A stretch of 64,000 bases of DNA from Loxodes magnus (lineage: Eukaryota; Ciliophora; Karyorelictea; Loxodida; Loxodidae): positions 124,001-188,000 of the forward strand of contig CAMPDV010000015.1 in NCBI GenBank assembly GCA_946699065.1, written 5' to 3'. Made by a program: the position numbers and the translations under genes. Of this stretch, positions 7,270 to 52,874 are shown piece after piece. Position 1 is the first letter of the stretch. Every line of letters starts with the position of its first letter. The notes below the pieces were generated by a model that saw only the letters and a program-made list of their open reading frames with translations, had not been told where the DNA came from and did no database searches.

Positions 7270-7342
7270 TCCACACTAGTCTAGCAGGTTAGGATATTCG
7301 GCTTTCACCCGAAAGACCCTGGTTGGAGTCCCGGATGTGGAA
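7270..7342 (+). pseudogene. Decayed tRNA-Glu (TTC) copy
   Basis: 73 nt, cloverleaf of tRNA-Glu with anticodon TTC in the loop CTTTCAC and a perfect TTCGG/CCGAA anticodon stem. Compared with the intact copies at 32323 and 33698 it has a C-A mismatch at the base of the acceptor stem (TCCACAC against ATGTGGA), a mismatch in the T stem (CCTGG against CCCGG), and TTGGAGT instead of TTCGAGT in the T loop. These hit the internal B box, so it is probably not functional. Shares flanks with the other copies. Confidence 0.7.
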
Positions 7343-9448: not shown

Positions 9449-9741
9449 ATATTTTTTATTAAACGAAACTTGAATATATTAAACTTATATTCCTATTTTT
9501 TTAAAACAATATCGCATTTATTTCTAAAATGGAAACAATCGAGGTGATAGTGTCTGTTTTCTTGCTAAAAGAACTTAACTCTTGCCAAATCGGACTTGAC
9601 TTCTCAAATTCCTGGACATTTTGTTATTGTTAAAATTGGAAATTTCATTTATTACAACATGATATATTTCAACAAACGAAAAGCCAAATCTAGATAAAGA
9701 CATAGCGTATAAATATCTTAATAATATTACAAATATATAAA

Positions 9742-10375: not shown

Positions 10376-10734
10376 TCAATTTTTAAGTGATTTTTATATT
10401 CAAGCAATAGCTAAAATGTTGTAAACCATATAAAGGATATGTCACAATAATAAATTATATTATGTTGTGTTATGCTATCATTATTTTTGTAGTTAAATTT
10501 AAAAATTATTTTTAAGCGAGAAATTATAATAGCTTTGCTTTTCAATTTAATTATTTCTTTCTATAATTACAAAAATAAAAAAATAAATGGGCATAAAATA
10601 AAAATAGATTTCTTTAAAAAATATAAAAATTTAAATATTTTAAATAAATTAATCAAATATAATATATAGAAAGTAACAATAAAATTATAACTTAAATTTA
10701 CATAAAGCTTGTAAGTTTTCTTTTAAATAAATAA

Positions 10735-11233
10735 ATAAATTTGATTATAGAGCGCGTAGCACTCTCGTTGGTGCGCAGATCTTTAAAAAAATGTTTCATA
10801 TTGACAAGAATGTTTGTTACTGATAAAATTATCAGATACTGATAAATCTTGTTTAATACTGGTATAATTATTCAGTACTGATAAAAATGTTCAATACTGA
10901 TATAATTTTAGAATACTCGTAGTCTTTAATACTTGCTGGAGGTCCAAGGACATGGCAGGATTGTGTCTCATTGCATCACCAAAGCAGAGGACGACATGTG
11001 TCAATTATGGGTACTTAAATTCCCCATCTCTGATGAAGCTCGCAATATTATTTCTTTTTCGTTCCAGAATTAAAAATAAACGAAGCCAAGCCAGCGTCGA
11101 AGATCTAAGAATCTTATGTCTCGAGGCCAAACCAAAGCAAAGGAAGACATAAAGTCGATTATGGGTACTTAACTTCCCCAACCTCTGATGAAGATGAACT
11201 TGTTGTTCACCTTCAAACAACTATGGCGGTTTT
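10735..11233 (+). repeat. R1 dispersed structured repeat, full-length copy 1
   Basis: About 500 bp, less AT-rich than its surroundings, recurring at 51585-52093 (minus) and 52523-52874 (plus). In order: a leader TAAATAAATTTGATTATAGAG; a hairpin GCGC..GCAC/GTGCGC at about 10750-10781; seven to eight tandem units of 19-20 nt, each starting TACTGATA or a variant (10797-10935); a TGGAGGTCCAAGG patch; two direct repeats of about 60-70 bp (10979-11040 and 11131-11199) sharing ATTATGGGTACTTAA and TCTGATGAAG; a hairpin in TTGTTCACCTTCAAACAA; and an end GGCGGTTTT. An ORF at 10952 exists but is not conserved as protein. The T-run end and the structure would suit a small RNA gene or SINE (inference); class unknown. 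Confidence 0.7.
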
Positions 11234-15092: not shown

Positions 15093-15108
15093 GAAAATAG
15101 AAAATTAA

Positions 15109-15946
15109 AAAAATGGATTAATCTCTTCGACTCTCAAAAAATTAACTTAGAAACCTAAAGAGAAAAGCGGCAAAATAAGTTTAAAAAAAATAATAACAAT
15201 AGGAGGAGTCAAGCTCTTCTTCAGAAGGTAAAGTTATGGTAGGATAAATAGAGATAAGTTAACCTAAAAACGAAACTAATCAAAAACTTTAAATTTAATT
15301 AGACCAAATGTAAAAAGTAATCTCAAATTATGAAGAAACAACTTACAACTTAGGCGAAAAAATACGGGAATTAATGAGTAACATAGAAGATTAGAACAAC
15401 GAATTACTAATACTTAGAAGATAACTTATTTGTAGCAAATTGATAACGGAAGAATAACTCTGAACTTAATCATAATAAAATTTTAAATACGACACAAAAA
15501 TGGAAATAGAAAAAATACCAATAGAATTAAAAACAGAATTGAATCCAGAAAAAGAAATGATTGCTACAAGTTTCATTAAAAGATTAGAAAATATAGAAAA
15601 TAAATTATCATAAAAAAGAACGAAATAAAGATAATAATACAAACTTTGTTGATGTTGCAAATCAAATCAACATATTTTAAAAAACTGTTGATAATGAAAG
15701 AAAATAAACGAATAAGAGCAGAAAAGAACATGGAGACAACTCAATAAACTATGAATAACTCCAACAGGGATCTACAAATAAAAGCTTTTTGCAAGACCAC
15801 TTGAACGGTTACAGTGGTAACCTTCCACTTAATAAAAAGGTCGTGGATCAAACCCACGTTAAAAAAACTGTCCGCAGGAACTGGTTGCAATTCCAGAGAA
15901 TGCAAAACTCTACTAACTTTAAGTATATTATTATTATTATTATTAT
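15109..15946 (+). mobile_element. Complete 0.84 kb ORF1-only retroelement with 16-bp TSD
   Basis: The 16-mer GAAAATAGAAAATTAA is present exactly at 15093-15108 and 15947-15962. Between the copies lie an ORF beginning four bases after the left copy and a run of ATT/TTA repeats directly before the right copy. This is the hallmark of target-primed insertion of a non-LTR element. There is room only for the gag-like gene. The last 150 bases fold into consecutive hairpins: GGTTAC-AGTG-GTAACC, CGTGG-ATCAAAC-CCACG (the shape of a tRNA T arm) and CTGG-TTGCAATT-CCAG. Inference: a non-autonomous element copied by a LINE enzyme in trans. Confidence 0.8.
15113..15925 (+). CDS. Gag/ORF1-like protein of the 15.1 kb element
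   Basis: One uninterrupted frame from ATG 15113 (MDQSLRLSKNQLRNLKRKAA). A Gln-rich basic leader is followed by a coiled coil around residues 60-110 (LDQMQKVISNYEE, LGEKIRELMSNIEDQNNELL). The zinc knuckle CWCCKSNQHILKNC (CX2CX4HX4C) sits around residues 180-193, and a TPTGIYKQKLF tail matches the sister copies. Trp in the knuckle and tail is TGA. After these Trp codons no TGA occurs in frame before the end of the element, so the ORF has no obvious stop. It either ends outside the element or one of the late TGA codons terminates. The end given here is the start of the repeat tail and is arbitrary. Confidence 0.65.
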
Positions 15947-15962
15947 GAAAATAGAAAATTAA

Positions 15963-16952
15963 TTAATTTGAAGAATATTTTAAATATCTTTTAAGATTAT
16001 CTAATTATGGAAGCTTCCTGTAGATAAAATATAATCATATTAAAGATACTTAAATTTTTTATTGCCTTTTATTTAATTTTATTAAGCAAATAGAATAAAT
16101 AAATTCTTTTCAAATCCTCTATAAAAAATATTAATAATCTTTTGGCTAGTTAAAAACAAGCATTACATAAAAAAATCAAAGTAAGCACGATAATTTCCTT
16201 AAATTATATAGCTATTATTTATGAAAAGTTTTCTAAATAAATAATCTAAACTAAGTTTTATTATACTTAAATTTATAAATTATTAAAGAAAGCTAATATA
16301 AAATAAGTGTTAATAAGTTTAAGTTTAAATTAATTAATTTAATATAAATATATCTATACAAGCAATCTTTTATAATTAATTATTTTAAACAAGGTACTAA
16401 ATAGCACTGCTATGTTCTTATTCATTTTTAATATTTCAATTATTTTCATAAATCATTAACATTTTTTTAATAATAGAGAAAAACCACTTTAATATTGTAA
16501 GATAAAATAACACCTTTTAAAGAATAAAATTAATTATCAACTATATAAATTATAACTAATTATTATAATACATAAACCATATAAACTAATAATAAATTGA
16601 ATGTCATCATACAACTAATTATATGCAACCTATTTCTCTTGCTAACTAATTTTAGAAATTGAATTTTATTTTAATAAATATTTTAAATAGAGAGTTATAA
16701 CTTAGTTGTGGATTTGAGAAATAATATATTTATTATTTATTAAATTAAAAAGAAATATATAAAATTTAGTTAACAGTTTAATATAAAAAGGTTATTGGCT
16801 CTTAAATTTATAAAATAATATATCTTTTCATAGTCTAAAATTTAGTTTCTCTTCGTTTTTTATGAGAAAATAGAGAAACAATATGTTAAAAAAAGAAAGT
16901 TATCCTTGAAGATTAAATTATTTTTTAAGATTAAGACAAAGTTATTTAGAGA
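15963..16952. other. Long duplicated flank of the tRNA-Glu copy
   Basis: From about 16380 onward the sequence matches 33120-33690 (shared landmarks: AAATAGCACTGCTAT, GAATGTCATCA, GAGTTATAACTTAGTTG), so this is a diverged copy of the segment that carries the intact tRNA-Glu at 33698. The part before 16380 is AT-rich with nothing recognised. Confidence 0.55.
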
Positions 16953-18110: not shown

Positions 18111-19984
18111 TTGTGTTAAATCTGCTTATAGTTAATTTTTTGAATTTATAAAAGTTTTTTCCAAAAATGATGATTTGTCTTACCTTTTTTAATTCCCCTT
18201 CGCTATTTCATATTATTTTAACTGGTATCCTATAATAATATAATCCATTTTCAAGGCAATATTTTTTATAGTTTATGATGATTCCTAGCCAAAAGGCAAA
18301 GCTGATTTATCTGCATTATCTCTTAATATATAGAGTTATAAAGAGTAAAACATCTATTAAATCTTTAGTTTTTTTTTTCTTTAGTACTCTTTGAATGATT
18401 CTTATGCTAAGACTAAATTACTCTCTAAATAAAACAAAAATTAAAAAAATTATTAAAAAAACCAGATAAAAGCAAGGTATAAAGATTTGTAAAAATACAT
18501 ATATAAATTAAGAAATTAATACTAGACAAGAATAATAAATAAAAAACAAATAAAATGTACATAAGAAAACAACTAGTCATAATTTATCTTAAAAAGAAAA
18601 TATATAGAAACAATACAGAAAAAAAAACTAAAATTAGTTAAAATATAAAAATTAAATATAAATCTAGTTTAAATCTAAATATTTTATTTAAAAATTTTTA
18701 ATTATAAAAAAATAAAAAGTAAATGCATTTTGATGATTTTTAGTAAATAATTTAAATTAAAAAATTATTTATAAAATTAAAATATTATTTAATTAAATAT
18801 CCCCAATTAAAACAAATTAAAATAAATGTTTAGAAAAATTATAAGAATAAAAATAAAATAAAGATTTTCATAAATTTAAATAAAAATTATGAATTAAGAT
18901 ACAATAAGAACTTAAAATAAATAAATTAAACATCAAATTAATTAATTCTTAATAAAATATTCTTCATTTACAATATGATATTATTATTTAAATATTCTAC
19001 AGAGTAAAAACAGACTAAATTTATTAATTTCTAAATTATTTAATGAACTTAAATTATAAAAGCATTTTAATAAAAATTTAATTTAAATATTTTTTAAATA
19101 TTTGATTACAGAAATAGGCTAAATTTATAATTAATAAATTTTTTTATTCTGCCTTATCTATAAAATAAAAACTGAAGAAAAAAATTTATATGATTTAATT
19201 GATTTTTTACTAAAATTTTATTTTTATTGTTGGTAAAATTTTACTTTTCATAATTCTGAATTTTACAAATAGTGTTTGTGCTCCAAGTTTATTAAATTTT
19301 TTTATAATGGTCTAATTTATTAATTTAAAAATATCTAGTTAACTACATTAGAACAGCAATATTTTGTGATTCTTTAGATTCACTTACTTATTTAAGTTAT
19401 ATAAAGATAAAGATATATTTACTAAAATTATTTTGGATCCCAAACAATAATTATTCCTTAAAAGATTATATTCATTCTATTAGAACTTTTAAGAAGAATC
19501 TTTTTTTAATTTTAGTTTTAAATTTAATAAAGGTTTAATTCTATTACTAAATACATAAATAAAAGAAAATCTTTAAAACTTTTAAATATAAGTACTCTAA
19601 GCTTATAAATTAATAAATTAATTTAAAATAATAAATATTTTTTTATTTTATAGTTACATATGATAAAATCCTAAATTTTAATATCAAATAAATATGAACA
19701 CTTCAAAAGTTTTTGAAAGATAGATGAAAAATAAAATAATCTACATATGTTTAAAGAAAGTTAACTAAAAGAATATAATAAATGTAATTATTTTATTTGA
19801 TATAGAATTTTAAGTTTGCTAGATAATTTTTAAATTCCTTTTCTATATCTTTAGGATTTTATCATTAAAATATTAATGCTTATTTTTTTCTAATATTAAT
19901 TTTTTCTGAGACTCCTTTCGAAGATTTTTCTAAATCAATCCTTTTAGTTCCTTGTTTTAATTAAATTAAAAATTGTTTGGCAGC
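18111..19984. other. AT-rich stretch, no gene supported
   Basis: Extremely AT-rich, with long A/T words. No conserved motif, RNA gene or clear repeat seen on either strand. Only the last bases approach the 3' end of the ORF1-like relic on the minus strand. Confidence 0.4.
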
Positions 19985-20930
19985 TACATAGAGTCACCGC
20001 TTAAAAGAAGTTTTAAAGTTAGAATTTTCTTGCTTAAGTCTAGCCGTAATATCCTTTAATCTTGTTCATCTTGTCTTTTTTTTCACACCTTATTTAGTTC
20101 TTACTCCGACTCCAAGTTTTTCAGGTTCGAGATTCTATTTTTTTTTATAAATTTCCCCGTTTTCTCTGTATCAGATTTAATTTTTCTTTCTCCTTATTGA
20201 TATTTGGACTTGTCTTTTCCAAGATTTCTCCTTGATTTTCTGGAAAGTTGCACATTGTCTTCATAGGTATCATTAACTCTTACAATAATAAAACTATTTT
20301 CCACTTTTGGTACTTGTTGCCTTTCCAATTTAAAGGTCTTTTCTATCCCCATCCTATCGGAATTTAGATTCTACTCCAGTGGATTCTGCTGGCTTTGGAG
20401 GTTTTTCTGGCTTTGTAATATATTTTCGATTTATTGACTCTAATCTTGAATTCTCTGTACTTAGGAGTTCGTCTAACCGAATTACTCTCGTTAGTAATTC
20501 CAAAAAGCGTCAAGTTCCCTCTCCTAGTTTGCCATCCTGAAGTCTAGGGTTTCTTGTAATCCATGCAGGATTTGTTCGGCTAGCTTCTCATTCTCCCTCC
20601 TTAGCTTTCTAACCTCTTCCTGGAGGCTAAGTACCACTTTGATAAGCTACTCCATGCTCACCTGCCAGAAGGATTAATTCAGAAACCTCCTGATGTAGAG
20701 CTGGCTTCAGTTACTTCCTAGGTTTTTCTTACGACGTAGGTGTTTACATATGTGTTTTTTTCATGACCTATTTTCGTTCCTCATAGTTGGTTTATTTCCC
20801 GGATAATAAAGGTTATTAAGAAAAAGGTTAGGGTTATTAAGAAGACGACTATCGAGAGATAGCTTCCGGTTTCCTCTCCTACTACGAGGAGGTGGTGTAG
20901 AAACCCTTTCTGAAGTTTTATTGCATTTTT
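19985..20930 (-). pseudogene. Decayed ORF1/gag-like element copy
   Basis: Minus-strand relic of the same family as 8502-9448. From 20930 down: a leader with PPPRSRRGNRK in one frame, like PPPQNRRENQK of the copy at 26209; a coiled coil MSMEQLIKVVLSLQEEVRKLRRENEKL; RELDAFWNYQ; and the knuckle position, now FYYCKSQWYLWRQC, where the first Cys and the His are lost. Frame slips separate the leader, coiled coil and knuckle. No tail or target-site duplication could be found. The GGTTAGGGTTA word in its 5' part is shared element sequence, not a telomere. Confidence 0.7.
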
Positions 20931-21222
20931 TTAGTTCCTTGGTTTTTAAATTTTGAAGGAAATATAAAAATAAAAGGCTTTATTTTATGTTTATAACAGA
21001 AAAAATAAAAAATAGAAATACGTAACTATATAATAAAAAATGATAAATAGAGTCTTATATTTAAATAGCAATAAATTTAGCAAAAAAGCATAAATAAGTT
21101 AGAAAGCTTTCTTTAATTAAAATTTTAAATAAATAGAATTATATTTTTCAATGTAAATATAATTAAAGAAACAAAATTTAACTTTGTTATTATATTTAAA
21201 TTCTATTTTATATTATTTATAA
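20931..21222. other. AT-rich spacer
   Basis: Short AT-rich spacer between the ORF1 relic and the tRNA-Leu copy. Nothing recognised. Confidence 0.4.
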
Positions 21223-21306
21223 GCATGTGTGGCCCAGCGGTCCAAGGCGCTAGACTCAAGTTCTAGTGGGAGAAATCCCGCGTGAGTTAAAATCTCACCG
21301 CATCAT
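21223..21306 (+). pseudogene. Diverged tRNA-Leu (CAA) copy
   Basis: 84 nt with a long variable arm (GTGGGAGAAATCCCGC) and anticodon CAA in loop CTCAAGT between CTAGA/TCTAG stems: tRNA-Leu decoding UUG. Compared with the copy at 40994-41077 it has GGCCCAGCGGTCCAAG instead of GGCCGAGCGGTCTAAG in the D arm, TTAAAAT instead of TTCAAAT in the T loop (loss of the invariant C of the B box), and a worse acceptor stem. Probably non-functional. Confidence 0.7.
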
Positions 21307-22074
21307 TTTGTTAATTTTAAATAATAAAAATAAAATAAACCTATTCCTTCTCTACTATATACTTGGGAAAATATTTACATCTTTAATGTAACTCTAAAAA
21401 TAAAAATCAGATATGATTTGATTTGAAATTAAGATGAATTAAGCTATCTATTTACATCTTTTGATTATTTGAAGATTTATTAAAAATACATAAAGTAAGC
21501 AGTCACTTATATATTCCTTCAAGTTAATAAAGTTTCAACATTATTGAATGATTTAAAATGTAAGCTTATAAAATAAAAATAAAAAGTTAAATGATTTTAA
21601 ATTAATAATGATAATAAACTTTTTAATTAGATAAATATTTGTAACTAGATACAACTAATCATTCCTAAAGCTAAAAGATCTTTAACTTTTGTAATTAAAT
21701 TTGAGAAAATTACTTGTATAAGCGTAAATTATTATGAAAACTACTTTTTAGCAATTATTATTTAAAATATTTAAGATTTGCTTTATTAATTCTAATTATC
21801 ATTATGTCTTTTGAGCAATAAGTTAAGATAATTTACTAAGCCAAACTCAAACTGACTAGATATAAGAAAATTTGCATTTATAATAAAAATAATTCTAAAT
21901 ATTAATAGAGAAACGATATAAATTTGTAATATTTAGCATTAATAAATATATTTACTTTGCTATAATATTAATAAGTATATTTATTTTGCTATAATATTAA
22001 AAAATAAAATTATGAAAAAGCAATTAGAATTAAGAATTAGGTATTATTAATCATAGTACATTTTATTTTAAAAG
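21307..22074. other. AT-rich stretch, no gene supported
   Basis: AT-rich sequence. A 28-base unit ending TATTTGCTATAATATTAA-like occurs twice in tandem near 21945-22005. No gene recognised. Confidence 0.35.
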
Positions 22075-25000
22075 CATCAATTAATAAATTTCAACTAAAA
22101 GAGTTTTTTGACGTCTTTAATTGCAAGAATTGCTTCTTTCAATTACAGACGTTAGTAGATGTTTTTAAATTGTTTTTTAATCTTGTTTATATCTCATCAT
22201 TTTTCTTTAATTAGTTCTTCTTTCTATTCATCTTTAGCTTCTTCCTTTTTTGCTTTCTCCATTTCTAGAATCTCAAGTCTCCTTGTCATTAGCTTCTTGT
22301 GAAATATTTTGATCTATAAGTCTAAATACTCCAATTTAGATCTTGAAAATGAGTTTAGATATTCTTGATCATATAGTATAAGGCGCCTTAAGTCATAATT
22401 TCCGATCTTTTCCGATAATCAATTCATTATATTAGAATAGTACACACATTTAAAGATATGCTCGAAAGTTTCATACTCTCCACACATACAATAGGGATTA
22501 TCAATGGGGTAATGACAATCTTAAAGATCCTTACGAACATTATAAGTTTAGGTTCTAAGTCAATATTTACTGATAATTTCTCGTCTATACTATTTGCTTA
22601 ATTTAGTATAAGTAATTTGTGGAAATTGTTAAAGATTACCAAATTATTCAGTATATACTTTAGCTGTTTTCATTCTCATAAATTTTTTAGTAGCTATTTA
22701 GAAATATTGTTGTATTTTTTCTCTTATATGTTTAGTAAAAGTTTTAAGATTGGTATTATTCTATTAATTCTGCTGATCGATATTATAAAAGTCTGATAAT
22801 TGTTACACTTAATCGTAGTATTGAAATCCTTTTTTCCATATATTAATGAAAAGAGAGCCTATTGTTGATCTTGGAAAATCAATACTTTTTTATTTCATTT
22901 TATAGTAGAATCTGAAGAATTTTATAGCCATAATGTGCTTAAAGGGTAATCAATTCAGGTCTATATAATATGATTCATTAAATGTTGAAGTTGTTACTTA
23001 AAAAGCTTTTCTTGAAATTAATCACATGCTTGATTCTATTCTGTTCAGAACTCCAGTTACTCCTTTTTGAATACTTCATGGTACTAAGTCTCCTCCATAT
23101 TCTGCTTTAGGTAATGTAAAAAGTCTACATAAAGTTTTAAAATGTCAAGGAGTTACGTTCTTATATCTCATCAGTTAAAAAACAGCTTTCTTCATTGTAG
23201 CTATGTATTTGAATGCAACTTCTTTGCAATGGGGATTAAAATTCTTCTTCTGATGTAGAATAACTCCTAAATATGTTACTTGTTCTTTTTAAGTAATTGG
23301 TTAATTTCCTAACCATAAATTTAAAATTTATTATTTCTGATTCTTCTTTAGAAATTAGATGCATTCAGATTTGGTAACATTGATCTTTAAATGTGTTCAT
23401 GCAAAAACTTTATTTGTTTCATTTATTAAATTCTACATCTACTTTGCAGATTTGGAAAGCAGAATAAGATCATCTGCCCATCCTCTACAAGCGAAGCTAA
23501 TACTTGAATCCTGGTATTTAAATCCCAATTAGGTACTTTTACTTTCCAAATATCTAATTACTATGTCATAATACAACAATGCTAAAACTGGTCCATGCGA
23601 ACTTCCTTAAATAACTCCATTGTTGTATTATAAAGTTCTGGTGCTCTTTCCATCTATGATAAATGAAGAATTTAGGTTTTTATAAAACGATTCTAAGGCT
23701 ATTATTATTCCAAGTGGTAGTTTAACTCTCTTAAGTTAATCAAACAAGAGTCTTCTTTCTATTGAGTCAAACATTTTTTCAACGTCTATCAGTGTTGCTA
23801 TCAATTTAGTCTTACCTTTAGCACATTTCCGATAGTTATCAATTATTTGTTATATTATTCGAATTTATTAAGTTGTTTATCTGTTTTTCATAAATCCCAT
23901 TTATGAAGGGTGAATCAAATTTCTCTAATAAATCAGATTTTATAGTCTTTTTGTTAAAGCTTTATCATATAGTTTTAGAATAGTATTAATAAGAGAAATA
24001 GGTAGTCAGTTTTTCCAATCATCTTTATTTCCTTTTTTAAATATTGGAATTATCACCGATGTATTTAATTCTTAAGGGATTCTCCAAGTCTTAGCATATT
24101 ATTCAGAAAAGGATTAAGAATTATTAATAAATATTATCCACCATATTTCAGAAGTTCACCTTTTATTCCATCTGGACCAGCTGATTTTCCGTTTGGAATT
24201 TCTTTTATAATTTCTTATATTTCTTGTATGGTAAAAAGATAAAATCCTTATAAATATGAGAGTGGATAATCTTTAATTTCTTAAATATTATCGTATATTT
24301 TATCTATTTTTTAATTACTAAGACTTATCTATTATTGAGTTTAGAATGCTTGTTAAAGACACAATTTTCCCATGATTCAATTAATTTATTTTTGATTTCT
24401 TAATTAAAGTTCATAGTATTTCTCTTCATAGGATTTAGAATTTTCTTAGCTTGTGAAAACATTTCCTTAGAATCTCCATTAAGAAGTAGAAATTTCTTTT
24501 TTGCTTTGTTTTTTTTAAATTTTCATAGATTATACTTGAAGTCTTTCCAAAGTAGTTTTGCTGCCTCATGAAGATTAGTTACTTGTCAGTTTATTCTTCC
24601 AAATTTTATGTGAGCGTCCTTATATTCTGAGTTAGCTCTTTTTGCCTCTATATATTTCTTTGCGAGAGCTCGAGGAAGTTTGTTATAATTTGAGTCTGGA
24701 ATAAACGAACCTAATGTTTAATCAGCATAGTCTTAAATACTACTTTTGATGCATTCATATTAATCTTCAAGATTATCTTAATCTATTTAAAAGAATTCTA
24801 GATAAGTTTGTAGGAAAGATTCTTAATATTTCTGCCTATCTATTGCATCTTATAACCTATTTATTTTATATTTTCTCTTAGTTATCTTCTCCCAATAGAC
24901 TATAGAATTATTGATAAAGTCGACAGTGATATTTTAAAAGCATAAGTTTAGCTGATTTATCACAGTCATTATAAAAACCTTTTGTAATAAATTTAATATC

Positions 25001-25140
25001 TCCCTTTGAAGATTAAATTGTGCCCTTTCTTTTCTTATATAATCATAGTTAAAAATGATATTTCCAGAATTAAAATAAATGGTTTAAAATTAAAGTTAGT
25101 TATAGTCCCTAATTGAGTGAAAACATAGATTTTAATTATT
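22075..25140 (-). pseudogene. Non-LTR retrotransposon reverse transcriptase (LINE ORF2), decayed and 5' truncated
   Basis: Read on the minus strand from about 25140 to 22075, the reverse transcriptase blocks appear in order: a Lys-rich pre-RT region (LPRALAKKYIEAKRANSEYKDAHIK); the fingers motif GKSAGPDGIKGELL; PISLINTILKLYDKAL; motif A DVEKMFDSIERRLLFDQL; motif B GVIQGSSHGPVLALLYYDI; the catalytic motif C as WADDLILLS (usual YADD or FADD); motif D LKINVTKSECIQF; and motif E VTYLGV. At least three frameshifts interrupt it. At the 5' end HSIRDYN may be the last strand of an apurinic-type endonuclease, the rest of which is missing. The enzyme copies element RNA at a nicked target. This copy is dead, but its family is the natural source of the trans activity needed by the ORF1-only elements. 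Confidence 0.88.
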
Positions 25141-26182
25141 TCTTAAGAGAGCTTTGTGTAGAGTTTGTAAAATAAAGAAAGAATAATAAGTTTATATAGA
25201 CTAATAATGCATAACTAAGACTAATGAGTAAAAATTGAAGAATTTAATGTATATTTTAATAAAATTAGATTATAAAATAATTATATTAACTATATATTTT
25301 AATAATTAAAAACTAAATGCAAATATGAAAGCTAATAAGTTGGAATAATTATATTAAACTTAGAAAATATCAAATTGACAATTACATACAAAATACTAAA
25401 GAATCTTTAGAACTAATATTAAATATATTTAATATTGTCTCTTTTAAAAAGCGAAATATAAAGGAAATTAAAGTTAACAAATATTTAAAAAGTTAAATAT
25501 TAAATAACACTAAATTGAAGCATTCTATTCTAAATAATTAATATATTTAAGAAATATAAATCATAGATATTTAAATATTACTATATTTATATTTAATTAT
25601 TGCTAACTTTTATTAAATATTATTTATTTTTAAAACCATATTAATAAAAAACCAAATATTACCATTTTTTATTTACATTTATAAATAGCAATCTGAGAAA
25701 CCTCAATTAGCTATATAATTAAATCAAATAATCTACTCATTTTAAAATTAATTTGGCTTTTTGTAAAGAAAGTAGAACTTAGATTTATAAATTTAAGTAG
25801 TTATTTATAAAAAAAATTTAATTTAGCAAATACAAATTTTGGTGAAAATAATACTTTTATTGTTTGTGAAGAATCTGCATAATGAAGCCTGTTAAAAGTA
25901 TTCAACTATTAATAAATAAAAATATTTACCTTAGATAACAAAGTTGATTAAATTAAAATTTAGGTAAACTTCAAAAGTTTAATATTCTTTTAACTTTTGG
26001 TCTATTTAGCTTATAAAAATCTGAATAAGACAGTTAAAGCTAAATAAAGTGATTGGCATGATAACCAATCTTTAATATTTAGATTTTACAATTTTCTAAA
26101 GTTTTTTTTGTGTCATTGTCTGATAATTGCAAATAAATATTCTTTTTAAAAACTTTAAGAAAGAAATTAATTTAATAAAAAC
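25141..26182. other. AT-rich stretch, no gene supported
   Basis: Very AT-rich DNA between the LINE relic and the next ORF1-like element. Nothing recognised. Confidence 0.4.
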
Positions 26183-26195
26183 TAATATTTATAAA

Positions 26196-27251
26196 GATAT
26201 AATATAAAATGGCTTCAAGAAGGGCTTTTTTACCACCTCCTCAGAACAGGAGAGAAAACCAGAAGCAAATATTCTCACCACGTCTTCTTCAACTTAACGC
26301 TCTTCCTAATAAAAATAACCAGAAAAACAAAATAAATTAGAAGAACTAATAAAAAATACTAAATCCTACAAATTAAAATAAAGCGGACTTCTTCCATCAA
26401 AGGACAAGCAGGAACTGAGACAAAAATTCAGAACAGAAAAGTTGACACAGCTCTCAACGCCTCTATTGAAAACTGAAAAAAGAGACCACTCAACTGAATC
26501 GATAAAAATAATAACGAAGAAATAAAAAACAAACGAAGAAGGTAAAGTACGATAATTTAATATAAATCCTATTACCTTTGATTTAGACAACGTTGAAATA
26601 GAACAAATGAACTCTGAATAGATGAAACGACTGATTCATCTACTTATTAGAAACATAAAAAAACTCGAAGAGGAATTAAACTCCCAGAAGGAAGAAATGT
26701 TTACAATAAGTCAGGATCTGATAAACCATGAAGATGATGACGAAGTCCATATGGTAGACTGAAGAGCTAAAGTCGGAGTCTATGAGTCAATTTAAAATTT
26801 AGAGAATGATATTTGAGTATTGCAAGAGCAAGACGAGAAAAACTGAGTAAAATTAGATTCCAGACTTAAATTAATAGAAGAAAACCTGTAGAAACCTTCT
26901 TAAGGAATTCCAATGGAAATAGAGAAACAAGAAAAGATATTTCCTAGAGCAAGGAAAAGATGCTACATTTGCAACAGCACTTGACATCTATGGCGAAAAT
27001 GTCCCCAATAGAAAAGAATAAGAATGAATATTTGGAGTAATATTAACTATTAGCAACTGAAATGGCGAGCGACGGAATTCTTCCCATCGGGAAATGGGAA
27101 AATCTGGAAAAAAAAATTCTTAACTCAGATTATTAAAAAGAGAGAAGTCCAGGAAAAAGAGCACAAGGAACGAACATGTAGGAAAGGAGATTTGATACAT
27201 TTAAAACTTCAATTAAGCCGGAAGGCGAAAATCTATTTTAATGATTTAATT
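26196..27251 (+). mobile_element. ORF1-only retroelement with candidate 13-bp TSD
   Basis: The 13-mer TAATATTTATAAA lies at 26183-26195 and 27252-27264, just outside the coding part. Inside, ATG 26209 begins MASRRAFLPPPQNRRENQK. Near 26300 the sensible frame slips by one base and then runs on without a break: a basic segment; a coiled coil (MKRLIHLLIRNIKKLEEELNSQKEEM, then LENDIWVLQEQDEKNW); the zinc knuckle CYICNSTWHLWRKC near 26961-27002 (Trp from TGA); FPSGNGKIWKKKFL; and a basic tail to about 27243. No repeat tail is visible. Same architecture as the 15.1 kb element; the single slip may be decay or an assembly indel. Confidence 0.65.
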
Positions 27252-27264
27252 TAATATTTATAAA

Positions 27265-28813
27265 AAATAAATAAAATCTTTTAACTCAAAGACTTAAGTT
27301 TAACTATAACTTAAGATTGAATGATAAGTTAAATTTTGAGAATGAGAGTATAAATAGTTAACTATTTATACAATTAATTAGAATTTTAATTTCTATGTTT
27401 TTAAAGCTAAGCATTAAGTTTTTAATTTAATTTGGATTTTTTATTATAGCTTATATACAAATAAAGTAGAATAAGTTTAGTTGTTGTATAATTGAAGTTT
27501 ATATTATAAATATCTAGAGAATAGAGAAAGTAAAATTTCTTTATATTTCATAATTTATTATTTACTACTAAGATGCTTTTACTATTTATATTTGATAATT
27601 AGTTATTTAAATTAAGAATATGAATTAATGCATTCTAAGTTGCAAAAGTTAAATTTCTTTATGACTCAAAGGAAAGATAATTAAAGATAGATCTAATTTT
27701 AAATGTATAATTTAGATAGTCAGAATTAGTTTCTAAAATTATAAAATATAATAGTTAAATTAGTGATTTAATTTATCACTTTAAAATAATAAATAGCACT
27801 AATTTATTTAATTTTACTAGCAACTATTATTAAATTTATCTTTCCTACTTTTAGATTCTAACTAAACTTTATTATGTCCTTAAATGACTTTACTATCTTT
27901 ATTTTTGATCTCTTTGCTTTAATTATTGATAATGAAATGTTTTAATTAATTTTAGCATATAAAGTATTTGCATTGTAAAGCTAGATAAGACTAAGCATGT
28001 CTCAATTAAGATTTAATAATTTAGTAAAGTATTAGGATGATAGGCTACTTATTAGATGATGATACCTATTAATAATGAGAAGGATAATTAAATATTTATG
28101 TGTATTTAATGAGAATGCTTAAGATGTAATATAGATATCTATTAAATATTTATGAAACAAATAGCTTATTATAAAGATTTAGTTATAACTAATACATATC
28201 AACTTAATAATCCCTTACTATTTAAATCTCTCTTTAATTATAATCAACTATGCTACTATTCTAGTCTAGTTTCTAAATAATAATCACTTTATTAAGATTA
28301 TCAAAGTCACCTCATTTCATAAGAGTCTGAAGAATGAAAGCTTGCTTCTTAAAGTTCTATTCTTAAGTCAATAGCAATATAATAGATATAATACACTAAA
28401 TAATTAACTAAAATAAGATAATTTATCTATCATTTCAATCATTTGCTTCATATAAAAGTCTCATATTATTTATCCTGCTTCTATCATTAATCACTTACTG
28501 CTATCACAACATCGCTTTAAATTAATTAGTAGATATAAATTTTATTAAGGTAATAGCTCCCTATAAGCAGCTACTTAGTATTAAATATGAAATATATCAT
28601 TTTTAACATTAGTGATATTAATTCATTTAAATATAGAATGCTCCTGCTGTTTAGCAATTAAAAGACAAAGCTTATAAATAAGTAAGACATAATAACGAAA
28701 AGCATGCAATAAGATTAGATTCTTTATAAAATTAATAAATTTATTATATTTTACTTTTATCAAGCATCACTTTAATATAATTAAGTATTAATAGATGCTA
28801 ACTACTAAATATT
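27265..28813. other. AT-rich stretch, no gene supported
   Basis: AT-rich sequence between the ORF1 element and the first kinase. Nothing recognised. Confidence 0.35.
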
Positions 28814-51584: not shown

Positions 51585-52093
51585 AAAACCGCCATAGTTG
51601 TTCGAAGGTGAACAACAAGGTCATCTTCATCAGAGATTGGGGAAGTTAAGTACCCATAATCGACTTTATGTCTTCCTCTGCTTTGGTTTGACCTCGAGAC
51701 ATAAGATTCTTAGACCTTCGACGTTGGCTTGACTTGGTTTCGTTTATTTTTAATACTGGAACAAAAAGAAATAATATTGCGAGCTTCATCAGAGGTTGGG
51801 GAAATTAAGTACCCATAATTGACACATGTCGTCCTCTGCTTTGGTGATGCAAAGAGACAAAATCCTGCCATTTCCTTGGACCTCCAACAAGTATTAAAGA
51901 TTACGAGTATTCTAAAATTATATCAGTATTGAACACTTTTATCAGTACTGAATAATTATACCAGTATTGAGCAAGGTTTATCAGTATCTGATAATTTTAT
52001 CAGTAACAAACATTCTTGTCAGTATGAAACATTTTTTTTAAAGAGCTGCCCACCAACGAGAGTGCTACGGGCTCTATAATCAAATTTATTTAT
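51585..52093 (-). repeat. R1 dispersed structured repeat, full-length copy 2
   Basis: Minus-strand full-length R1, with both internal direct repeats, the tandem TACTGATA-type units (about 51885-52040) and the terminal hairpin as GAGCCC...GGGCAGCTC. It ends at AAAACCGCC (the reverse of GGCGGTTTT). Forms an inverted pair with copy 3, with 5' ends facing across about 430 bp of AT-rich DNA. Confidence 0.75.
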
Positions 52094-52522
52094 GTTAATT
52101 TTATCCTTAAACCTTAGATAAAAAATTTAATTATATATAAGTATTTAATTTATCTCATCTGAGAAAAATACATAAAATTAAGAATTATTTTTATATTTCA
52201 TTAAAACAAAAATTATATATATTCACTAAAGTTTACTTTAGTGATATTTCTATATGTTTAGATAAAATATTTTAATTTTAAATATAATAGCCTGCTTTTT
52301 AATTTTACTTAATTTAGCTATTTTTAATATCTTTAAAATTTTAAATAAAAGTTATTTATATCTTGCTTTATATTATTTTGTGTTTAAATGGAAACATCTA
52401 AATAAATTAATTAATAAAAAATAAGTTACAATTAATTTTTCTATTTTATTAGTTTATAAATTTAGATTATTTAAAATAAATCACCTAATTTAGAATATTA
52501 CTCCTAAACTAAAAAATTTCTT

Positions 52523-52874
52523 AAATAAATAAATTTGATTATAGAGCCCGTAGCACTCTCGTTGGTGGGCAGCTCTTTAAAAAAAATGTTTCATACTGAC
52601 AAGAATGTTTGTTACTGATAAAATTATCAGATACTGATAAGCCTTGTTCAATACTGGTATAATTATTCAGTACTGATAAAAGTGTTCAATACTGATATAA
52701 TTTTAGAATACTCGTAATCTTTAATACTTGTTGGAGGTCCAAGGAAATGGCAGGATTTTGTCTCTTTGCATCACCAAAGCAGAGGACGACATGTGTCAAT
52801 TATGGGTACTTAATTTCCCCAACCTCTGATGAAGATGACCTTGTTGTTCACCTTCGAACAACTATGGCGGTTTT
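52523..52874 (+). repeat. R1 dispersed structured repeat, internally deleted copy 3
   Basis: Closely matches copy 2 (same GCCC/GGGC hairpin at about 52544-52575 and the same tandem units) but has only one of the two 60-70 bp direct repeats and lacks the segment between them, as expected from recombination or slippage between the repeats. Ends GGCGGTTTT and then runs into the small-gene fragment. Confidence 0.75.

Follow-up and report, generated by a model that had tools for sequence, protein, structure and literature searches.

Retroelements that encode only the first open reading frame (ORF1) of a long interspersed nuclear element (LINE) have been described both in a ciliate and in mammals. 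The solo ORF1s A-G of Paramecium tetraurelia (Guerin et al. 2017, PMC5405496) are described there as containing ORF1 only, with a zinc finger that resembles that of LINEs in the same genome, and a movement in trans is proposed for them. HAL1, the half-L1 of mammals, derives from L1, is non-autonomous and encodes only ORF1p (PMC5753468). In the 64-kb window of the Loxodes magnus genome investigated here (the whole analysed stretch of contig CAMPDV010000015.1), an 838-bp element enclosed by a 16-nt direct repeat was found, which is very probably a non-autonomous retrotransposon of the solo-ORF1 type without long terminal repeats (non-LTR), recently inserted. It resembles the Paramecium elements in having ORF1 only, a C-terminal zinc finger and a simple-repeat 3′ end, and belongs to the same phylum; mobilisation in trans has been proposed for both. 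As far as the Paramecium elements are described in that article, they are germline sequences and end in (TAAA)n in three cases, whereas the Loxodes element ends in (TTA)n in an assembly taken as somatic, has 1191 exact 5′ ends and requires TGA to be read as Trp; the two are likened by layout, not by sequence. With HAL1 the element shares its non-autonomous nature and ORF1 as the sole coding content, but its tail is (TTA)n and no parent LINE was identified among those compared. Tt.REP of Tetrahymena is likewise a ciliate non-LTR element with ORF1, but is reported with two ORFs and a conserved 54-bp 3′ tail (PMC6564038). The Loxodes magnus LINEs rnd-1_family-27 and -19, described in PMC11441545, are non-LTR elements of the same genome with many copies; the element studied here measures just 838 bp.

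The direct repeat (GAAAATAGAAAATTAA), noted beforehand as an exact 16-mer on both sides, has two exact occurrences in the window and none on the opposite strand. The enclosed DNA has a GC content of 27%, against 16-18% in the flanks, and the TTA repeat tail ahead of the right repeat copy, also noted earlier, comprises seven units. No LTR or terminal inverted repeat was detected in the window copy, nor any terminal repeat other than the target-site duplication (TSD). The 16-nt repeat is by itself weak evidence, because one further exact 16-nt direct repeat pair at 300-1500 bp spacing is present in the window.

To determine the distribution of the element, the assembly (705,730,643 bases in 7843 contigs) was searched. 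Among the best 40 of 1912 candidates in the DNA search, the 39 other than the window copy were 98-99% identical, and all 39 fetched copies aligned from position 1 or 2 to position 833-838 of 838. These copies have common element ends, as the preliminary description had proposed to check, but no common flanking repeat. The best 142 of 12957 candidates in the protein search covered at least 268 of 271 amino acids with five TGA codons. The exact 21-nt 5′ end occurred 1191 times, while the reversed pattern, used as a control, gave 0 occurrences. The number of distinct loci is probably lower, as the assembly may contain allelic copies; a k-mer genome size of 261-262 Mb is given in PMC11441545. Eight loci were also taken regardless of similarity from 100 of the 1191 exact 5′-end places. 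Seven were full length with all five TGA codons, six at 98.2-98.8% identity and one (L101) at 93.1%, and four of the seven had a TSD score of at least 12 (the length less 4 for each mismatch, with no more than one allowed; clear if at least 12). The eighth, L106, breaks off within the ORF near element position 400 and continues directly with (TTA)n, which may represent an internal 3′ end or an internal deletion of the same appearance. A search with the 3′ 100 nt of the element gave 1069 candidates, of which the best 40, all 99-100% identical, were taken as the same family, so that a diverged LINE could not show there.

Insertion signatures were investigated in 70 copies (69 fetched, 30 of these picked by protein, and the window copy), representing 55 independent sites. 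A clear TSD was obtained in 44 of the 55 sites, compared with 1 of 55 when the right side was displaced as a control. These duplications were 12-25 nt long, with a modal length of 15, and private to each site, and the length of the (TTA)n tail varied among copies, as would be expected of the insertion process that had been suggested. In all 44 sites the copy stops with its (TTA)n tail, next to the duplicated target; the possibility raised earlier that copies run past these ends into reverse transcriptase or LTR sequence is not borne out at these 44 sites. A variable A-rich stretch precedes the ATGG on the 5′ side of the copies. In 40 of the 44 sites, 2 nt or more of the duplicated target prolonged the TTA repeat of the tail without a break in phase, compared with 6.4 sites expected when flank positions were chosen at random; such microhomology between tail and target is a mark of target-primed reverse transcription.

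The joined flanks of the 55 sites were also compared with the fetched loci and the window, and empty sites were found for four of them, at paralogous places. The empty site of L061 lies in the LINE gene of L082 (587 nt, 95.2% identity, 0 gaps), that of L016 in L059 (88%), that of L042 in the LINE of the window at 24224-24722 (82.5%) and that of L053 in L080 (71%). Matches for L012, L034, L047, L050 and L056 were A/T-rich or weak (64-73% identity) and were discarded. For the window copy itself, no empty site was found in the duplicated tRNA-Glu segments of the window, where homology stops at 16319, short of the element. LINE sequence could be observed beside the copies at L042, L043/L061, L053 and L059. 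In three of these cases the copy sits within a LINE and its empty site was matched; in L059, LINE DNA lies about 270 bp from the copy in opposite orientation. Fixed ends, TSDs private to each site, a tail of simple repeats and the four empty sites show the element to be a repeat family.

The ORF had been described as starting four bases into the element, and an ATG is indeed located there. The frame is, however, not open in the usual ciliate code (TAA/TAG as Gln), in which it extends only from 15113 to 15460, since in-frame TGA codons follow at 15461, 15650, 15689, 15695 and 15752 (codons 117, 180, 193, 195 and 214). In Loxodes, UGA is the sole stop codon and is read as Trp when the poly-A tail lies at a sufficient distance downstream (PMC11441545). 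The protein kinase gene in the window carries a TGA in KSDI*SCGV. We take this to be a kinase motif with a conserved Trp at that position. Both the kinase codon and the published rule indicate that TGA as Trp fits the host; under this reading the first four TGA codons of ORF1 are sense codons and the zinc knuckle CWCCKSNQHILKNC is complete. An initial interpretation of the ORF as decayed, with five TGA codons under table 6, was dropped once the host code had been recognised and the TGA codons were seen to be retained. Among 40 aligned copies no indel was found, all five TGA codons were present in 40 and the ATG in 39. The TGA at codon 214 is likely the stop, as no coding constraint is evident beyond it (0 synonymous versus 3 other changes in the comparison of L101 with the majority sequence). 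With the stop at this codon, the 3′ untranslated region would measure about 170 nt without the tail, which exceeds the mean of 53 bp given for Loxodes in PMC11441545.

Read in this way, ORF1 encodes a single protein of 213 residues (27 acidic, 39 basic) with a basic N-terminus, a coiled-coil-like middle with a strong heptad pattern at about residues 62-107 according to a crude heptad count, and the CX2CX4HX4C knuckle near the C-terminus, in agreement with the coiled-coil zinc-knuckle protein proposed at the outset. No reverse transcriptase or endonuclease family was recognised in the frame read from 15113 to 15925, hence the element can only be non-autonomous. Searches of Pfam, PDB and metagenome proteins with the element gave no match above the cut-off.

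Constraint on the protein was assessed with L101, the 93%-identical copy, which represents another source lineage and carries an exact TSD of 16 nt that is partly TTA repeat. Compared with the majority sequence, this copy had a synonymous divergence (dS) of 0.31 and a nonsynonymous divergence (dN) of 0.039, a dN/dS of 0.13. Of its 51 ORF changes 31 were synonymous, against a random mean of 15.3, and none of 5000 randomisations reached this number; no indel was present and the TGA codons were retained. Because of this dN/dS, ORF1 looks like a selected protein when TGA is read as Trp. The divergence of L101 drops along the element, with a dS of 0.51 over codons 1-116 and 0.10 over the later codons, followed by 1.8% in the 3′ region, so that this copy is probably a mosaic. 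A selection test on the mixed 55 sites (25/47 single and 9/13 shared changes synonymous, expected 0.31) was not relied on, since similarity of the protein had been the basis for choosing 30 of the 69 fetched loci.

Further elements of similar layout could be observed. One, at about 9448-8501 on the minus strand of the window, has the knuckle CYYCNSGEHLWRRC, a stem-loop 3′ end, a (TTA)n tail and a weak 11-nt candidate TSD, and a LINE-like plus-strand match starts at 9452, at its 5′ end. This element also belongs to a repeat family: among the best 40 of 5329 candidates, the 39 others were 92-94% identical. A third ORF1-only element was found in L023; its knuckle, read by eye, has Asn in place of His. 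The 3′ ends of the three elements were alike beyond shuffling, with 2, 0 and 0 of 2000 shuffles reaching the observed similarity in the three comparisons. ORF1-like coding stretches are also located at 26197-27320 (plus strand), with the knuckle CYICNSTWHLWRKC at 26961, and at 19901-21400 (minus strand).

Potential sources of reverse transcriptase were present in the same genome. A LINE with endonuclease and reverse transcriptase lies at about 22079-25600 on the minus strand of the window (LINE family A) and is 95% identical to the LINE of L081 over 2863 bp; the L081 copy ends in (TTTAA)n and a copy in L082 in (TTAA)n. Matches to the LINE endonuclease in the genome numbered 2075 candidates, of which the best 150 were given. 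The 3′ end of the element showed a weak likeness to LINE family A (7 of 2000 shuffles), one of six comparisons between ORF1-only elements and LINEs; the other five gave 1187, 476, 55, 950 and 161 of 2000. Because this resemblance is weak, LINE family A is a candidate helper and no more.

It is possible, though rather unlikely, that the element is an internally deleted product of one LINE whose parent is still in the genome, as in HAL1; such an origin would be a refinement compatible with the solo-ORF1 interpretation. In addition to the weak likeness to LINE family A, it would fit the 5′ leaders of the other elements, which match that of the LINE in L079, which has ORF1, endonuclease and reverse transcriptase. 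The 26197 element scored 101 against this leader (maximum of 200 shuffles 31) and the 9448 element 56 (maximum 30); the leaders of these two elements scored 68 against each other, compared with 34 in shuffles, and the 19901-21400 stretch showed a weaker match at 20862-20921. The studied element, in contrast, does not share the leader of the L079 LINE, and its ORF1 gave no match to the ORF1 of that LINE at E<=0.001. Outside the family, the nearest relative of the ORF1 to come to light is weakly similar and is encoded at 6628-7300 of L082, downstream of the LINE tail (E 5.5e-5 and weaker; E 1.9e-8 without composition correction). This stretch, with DNA read to 7501, could be an ORF1-only element or the ORF1 of a complete LINE. 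A parent was sought by ORF1 and by 3′ end in four LINE loci and the window LINE, and none was identified among these.

Far less probable is a SINE-like (short interspersed nuclear element) non-coding parasite, in which the ORF would be a relic and the 3′ end alone would matter for mobilisation. It would agree with the missing reverse transcriptase, with the similar 3′ ends of the three ORF1-only elements, with the less diverged 3′ end of the studied one and with the neutral appearance of changes in recent copies, and tRNA box-like words were suspected by eye at about 15810-15860. No tRNA match was obtained there even at a lax threshold, however, and the low dN/dS, the absence of indels and the retained TGA codons of L101, together with the same protein layout in other ORF1-only elements, argue against a relic. 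A tRNA-like 3′ half, with folds no better than shuffles, was not supported, and a tRNA-derived SINE does not fit an ORF whose divergence is mostly synonymous. A processed host gene, or a chance repeat with an accidental 16-mer, finds some room in the fact that 16-nt direct repeats are not rare in this A/T-rich window, but is refuted by the 1191 exact 5′ ends, the private TSDs and the empty sites and has practically no probability left.

Several observations weigh against the interpretation as a solo-ORF1 element with a selected protein that is moved by a LINE. In the set of DNA-picked copies at 35 independent sites, single ORF changes look neutral (6/23 synonymous, expected 0.29), in line with copies that appear to drift once inserted, and constraint is only suggested by the shared changes (5/8 synonymous, P=0.053). 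The dN/dS derives from a single sister copy that is apparently mosaic. No clear TSD was found in 11 of the 55 sites, the two other ORF1-only elements did not resemble LINE family A (476 and 950 of 2000 shuffles), the 3′ folds of the element were no more stable than those of shuffled sequences, and no LINE carrying the studied ORF1 was found among the four LINE loci and the window LINE. The half-LINE proposed beforehand is supported by its copies, private TSDs, tails and empty sites, with the helper in trans as a putative part.

In the solo-ORF1 interpretation, mobilisation in trans is inferred from the absence of a reverse transcriptase in the frame and the presence of LINEs in the genome. The element RNA would be translated into an RNA-binding ORF1 protein with coiled coil and zinc knuckle, and this protein would coat, probably in cis, the RNA that encodes it. 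The endonuclease/reverse transcriptase of a LINE, provided in trans, would bind the 3′ stem-loop and tail and nick an A/T-rich target, where the (UUA)n tail could anneal to TTA-like bases at the nick and the RNA be copied in place, leaving a target duplication of about 15 nt. Judging from L106, the (TTA)n tail may not be encoded but added at the target by the reverse transcriptase. Tentatively, and with somewhat less than an even chance, Loxodes may harbour a set of ORF1-only families that share their 3′ stem-loop end, depend on LINE reverse transcriptase and have their own ORF1 kept by selection.

Table 1. Coordinates of the element and its features in the window
Feature	Position	Strand	Remark
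Left target-site duplication, 16 nt	15093-15108		Exact match to 15947-15962
5′ end, short A-run ahead of ATG	15109-15112	+	Variable A-rich stretch in other copies
ORF1, 213 codons and likely TGA stop (15752-15754)	15113-15754	+	TAA/TAG=Gln, TGA=Trp
In-frame TGA, codon 117, as Trp	15461-15463	+	Retained in 40/40 aligned copies
Zinc knuckle, codons 179-192	15647-15688	+	CX2CX4HX4C; Trp is TGA codon 180 (15650-15652)
In-frame TGA codons 193 and 195, as Trp	15689-15697	+	Retained in 40/40 aligned copies
3′ untranslated region	15755-15925	+	1.8 vs 8.0 (ORF) differences per 100, one comparison
3′ stem-loop CTGG-TTGCAATT-CCAG, then GCAAAACT	15881-15896	+	Counterpart in two other ORF1-only elements
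(TTA)7 tail	15926-15946	+	Length differs among copies
Right target-site duplication	15947-15962		Exact match to left copy

Other repeats were also present in the window. A repeat of about 310 bp occurs at 10724-11038, 51784-52093 (minus strand) and 52522-52865 with 95-99% identity over the aligned parts, and partly in L048, L049 and L079; the copy in L079 stops close to a TTTA-rich run and is SINE-like. The kinase coding sequence lies in an inverted repeat of 1952 nt (29041-30992/35074-37025, 99% identity), with diverged relatives near 49 and 59 kb. Four tRNA-Glu(TTC) genes, at 7270, 16953, 32323 (minus strand) and 33698, lie within diverged segmental duplications that are several hundred bp long; two of them, 1.3 kb apart, are in inverted orientation.

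The preliminary description knew of no described half-LINE family in ciliates; the kind is, however, already described, given the solo ORF1s reported in Paramecium. No title on ORF1-only Loxodes elements was found among the papers listed on Loxodes retrotransposons, solo-ORF1 elements and half-LINEs, although a supplementary repeat table might list one; the main text of PMC11441545 contains neither the term ORF1 nor the term SINE. As far as the literature searches reach, the element therefore represents a recently active ORF1-only non-LTR family of a kind already known, but new for karyorelicts. Karyorelicts thereby join Paramecium as hosts of ORF1-only elements, and the genome concerned is reported to be without extensive editing. 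The family is a mobile gene whose translation depends on sense UGA, and it would pass for a dead pseudogene if scanned with the usual ciliate code. It also bears on an open question of LINE biology, namely why a parasite that borrows reverse transcriptase keeps an RNA-binding ORF1 protein. This question becomes testable here, as about a thousand young copies and sister subfamilies are available and dN/dS can be measured. If a set of such families on LINE reverse transcriptase does exist in Loxodes, the ORF1 protein would act in cis even while the ORF2 protein acts in trans.
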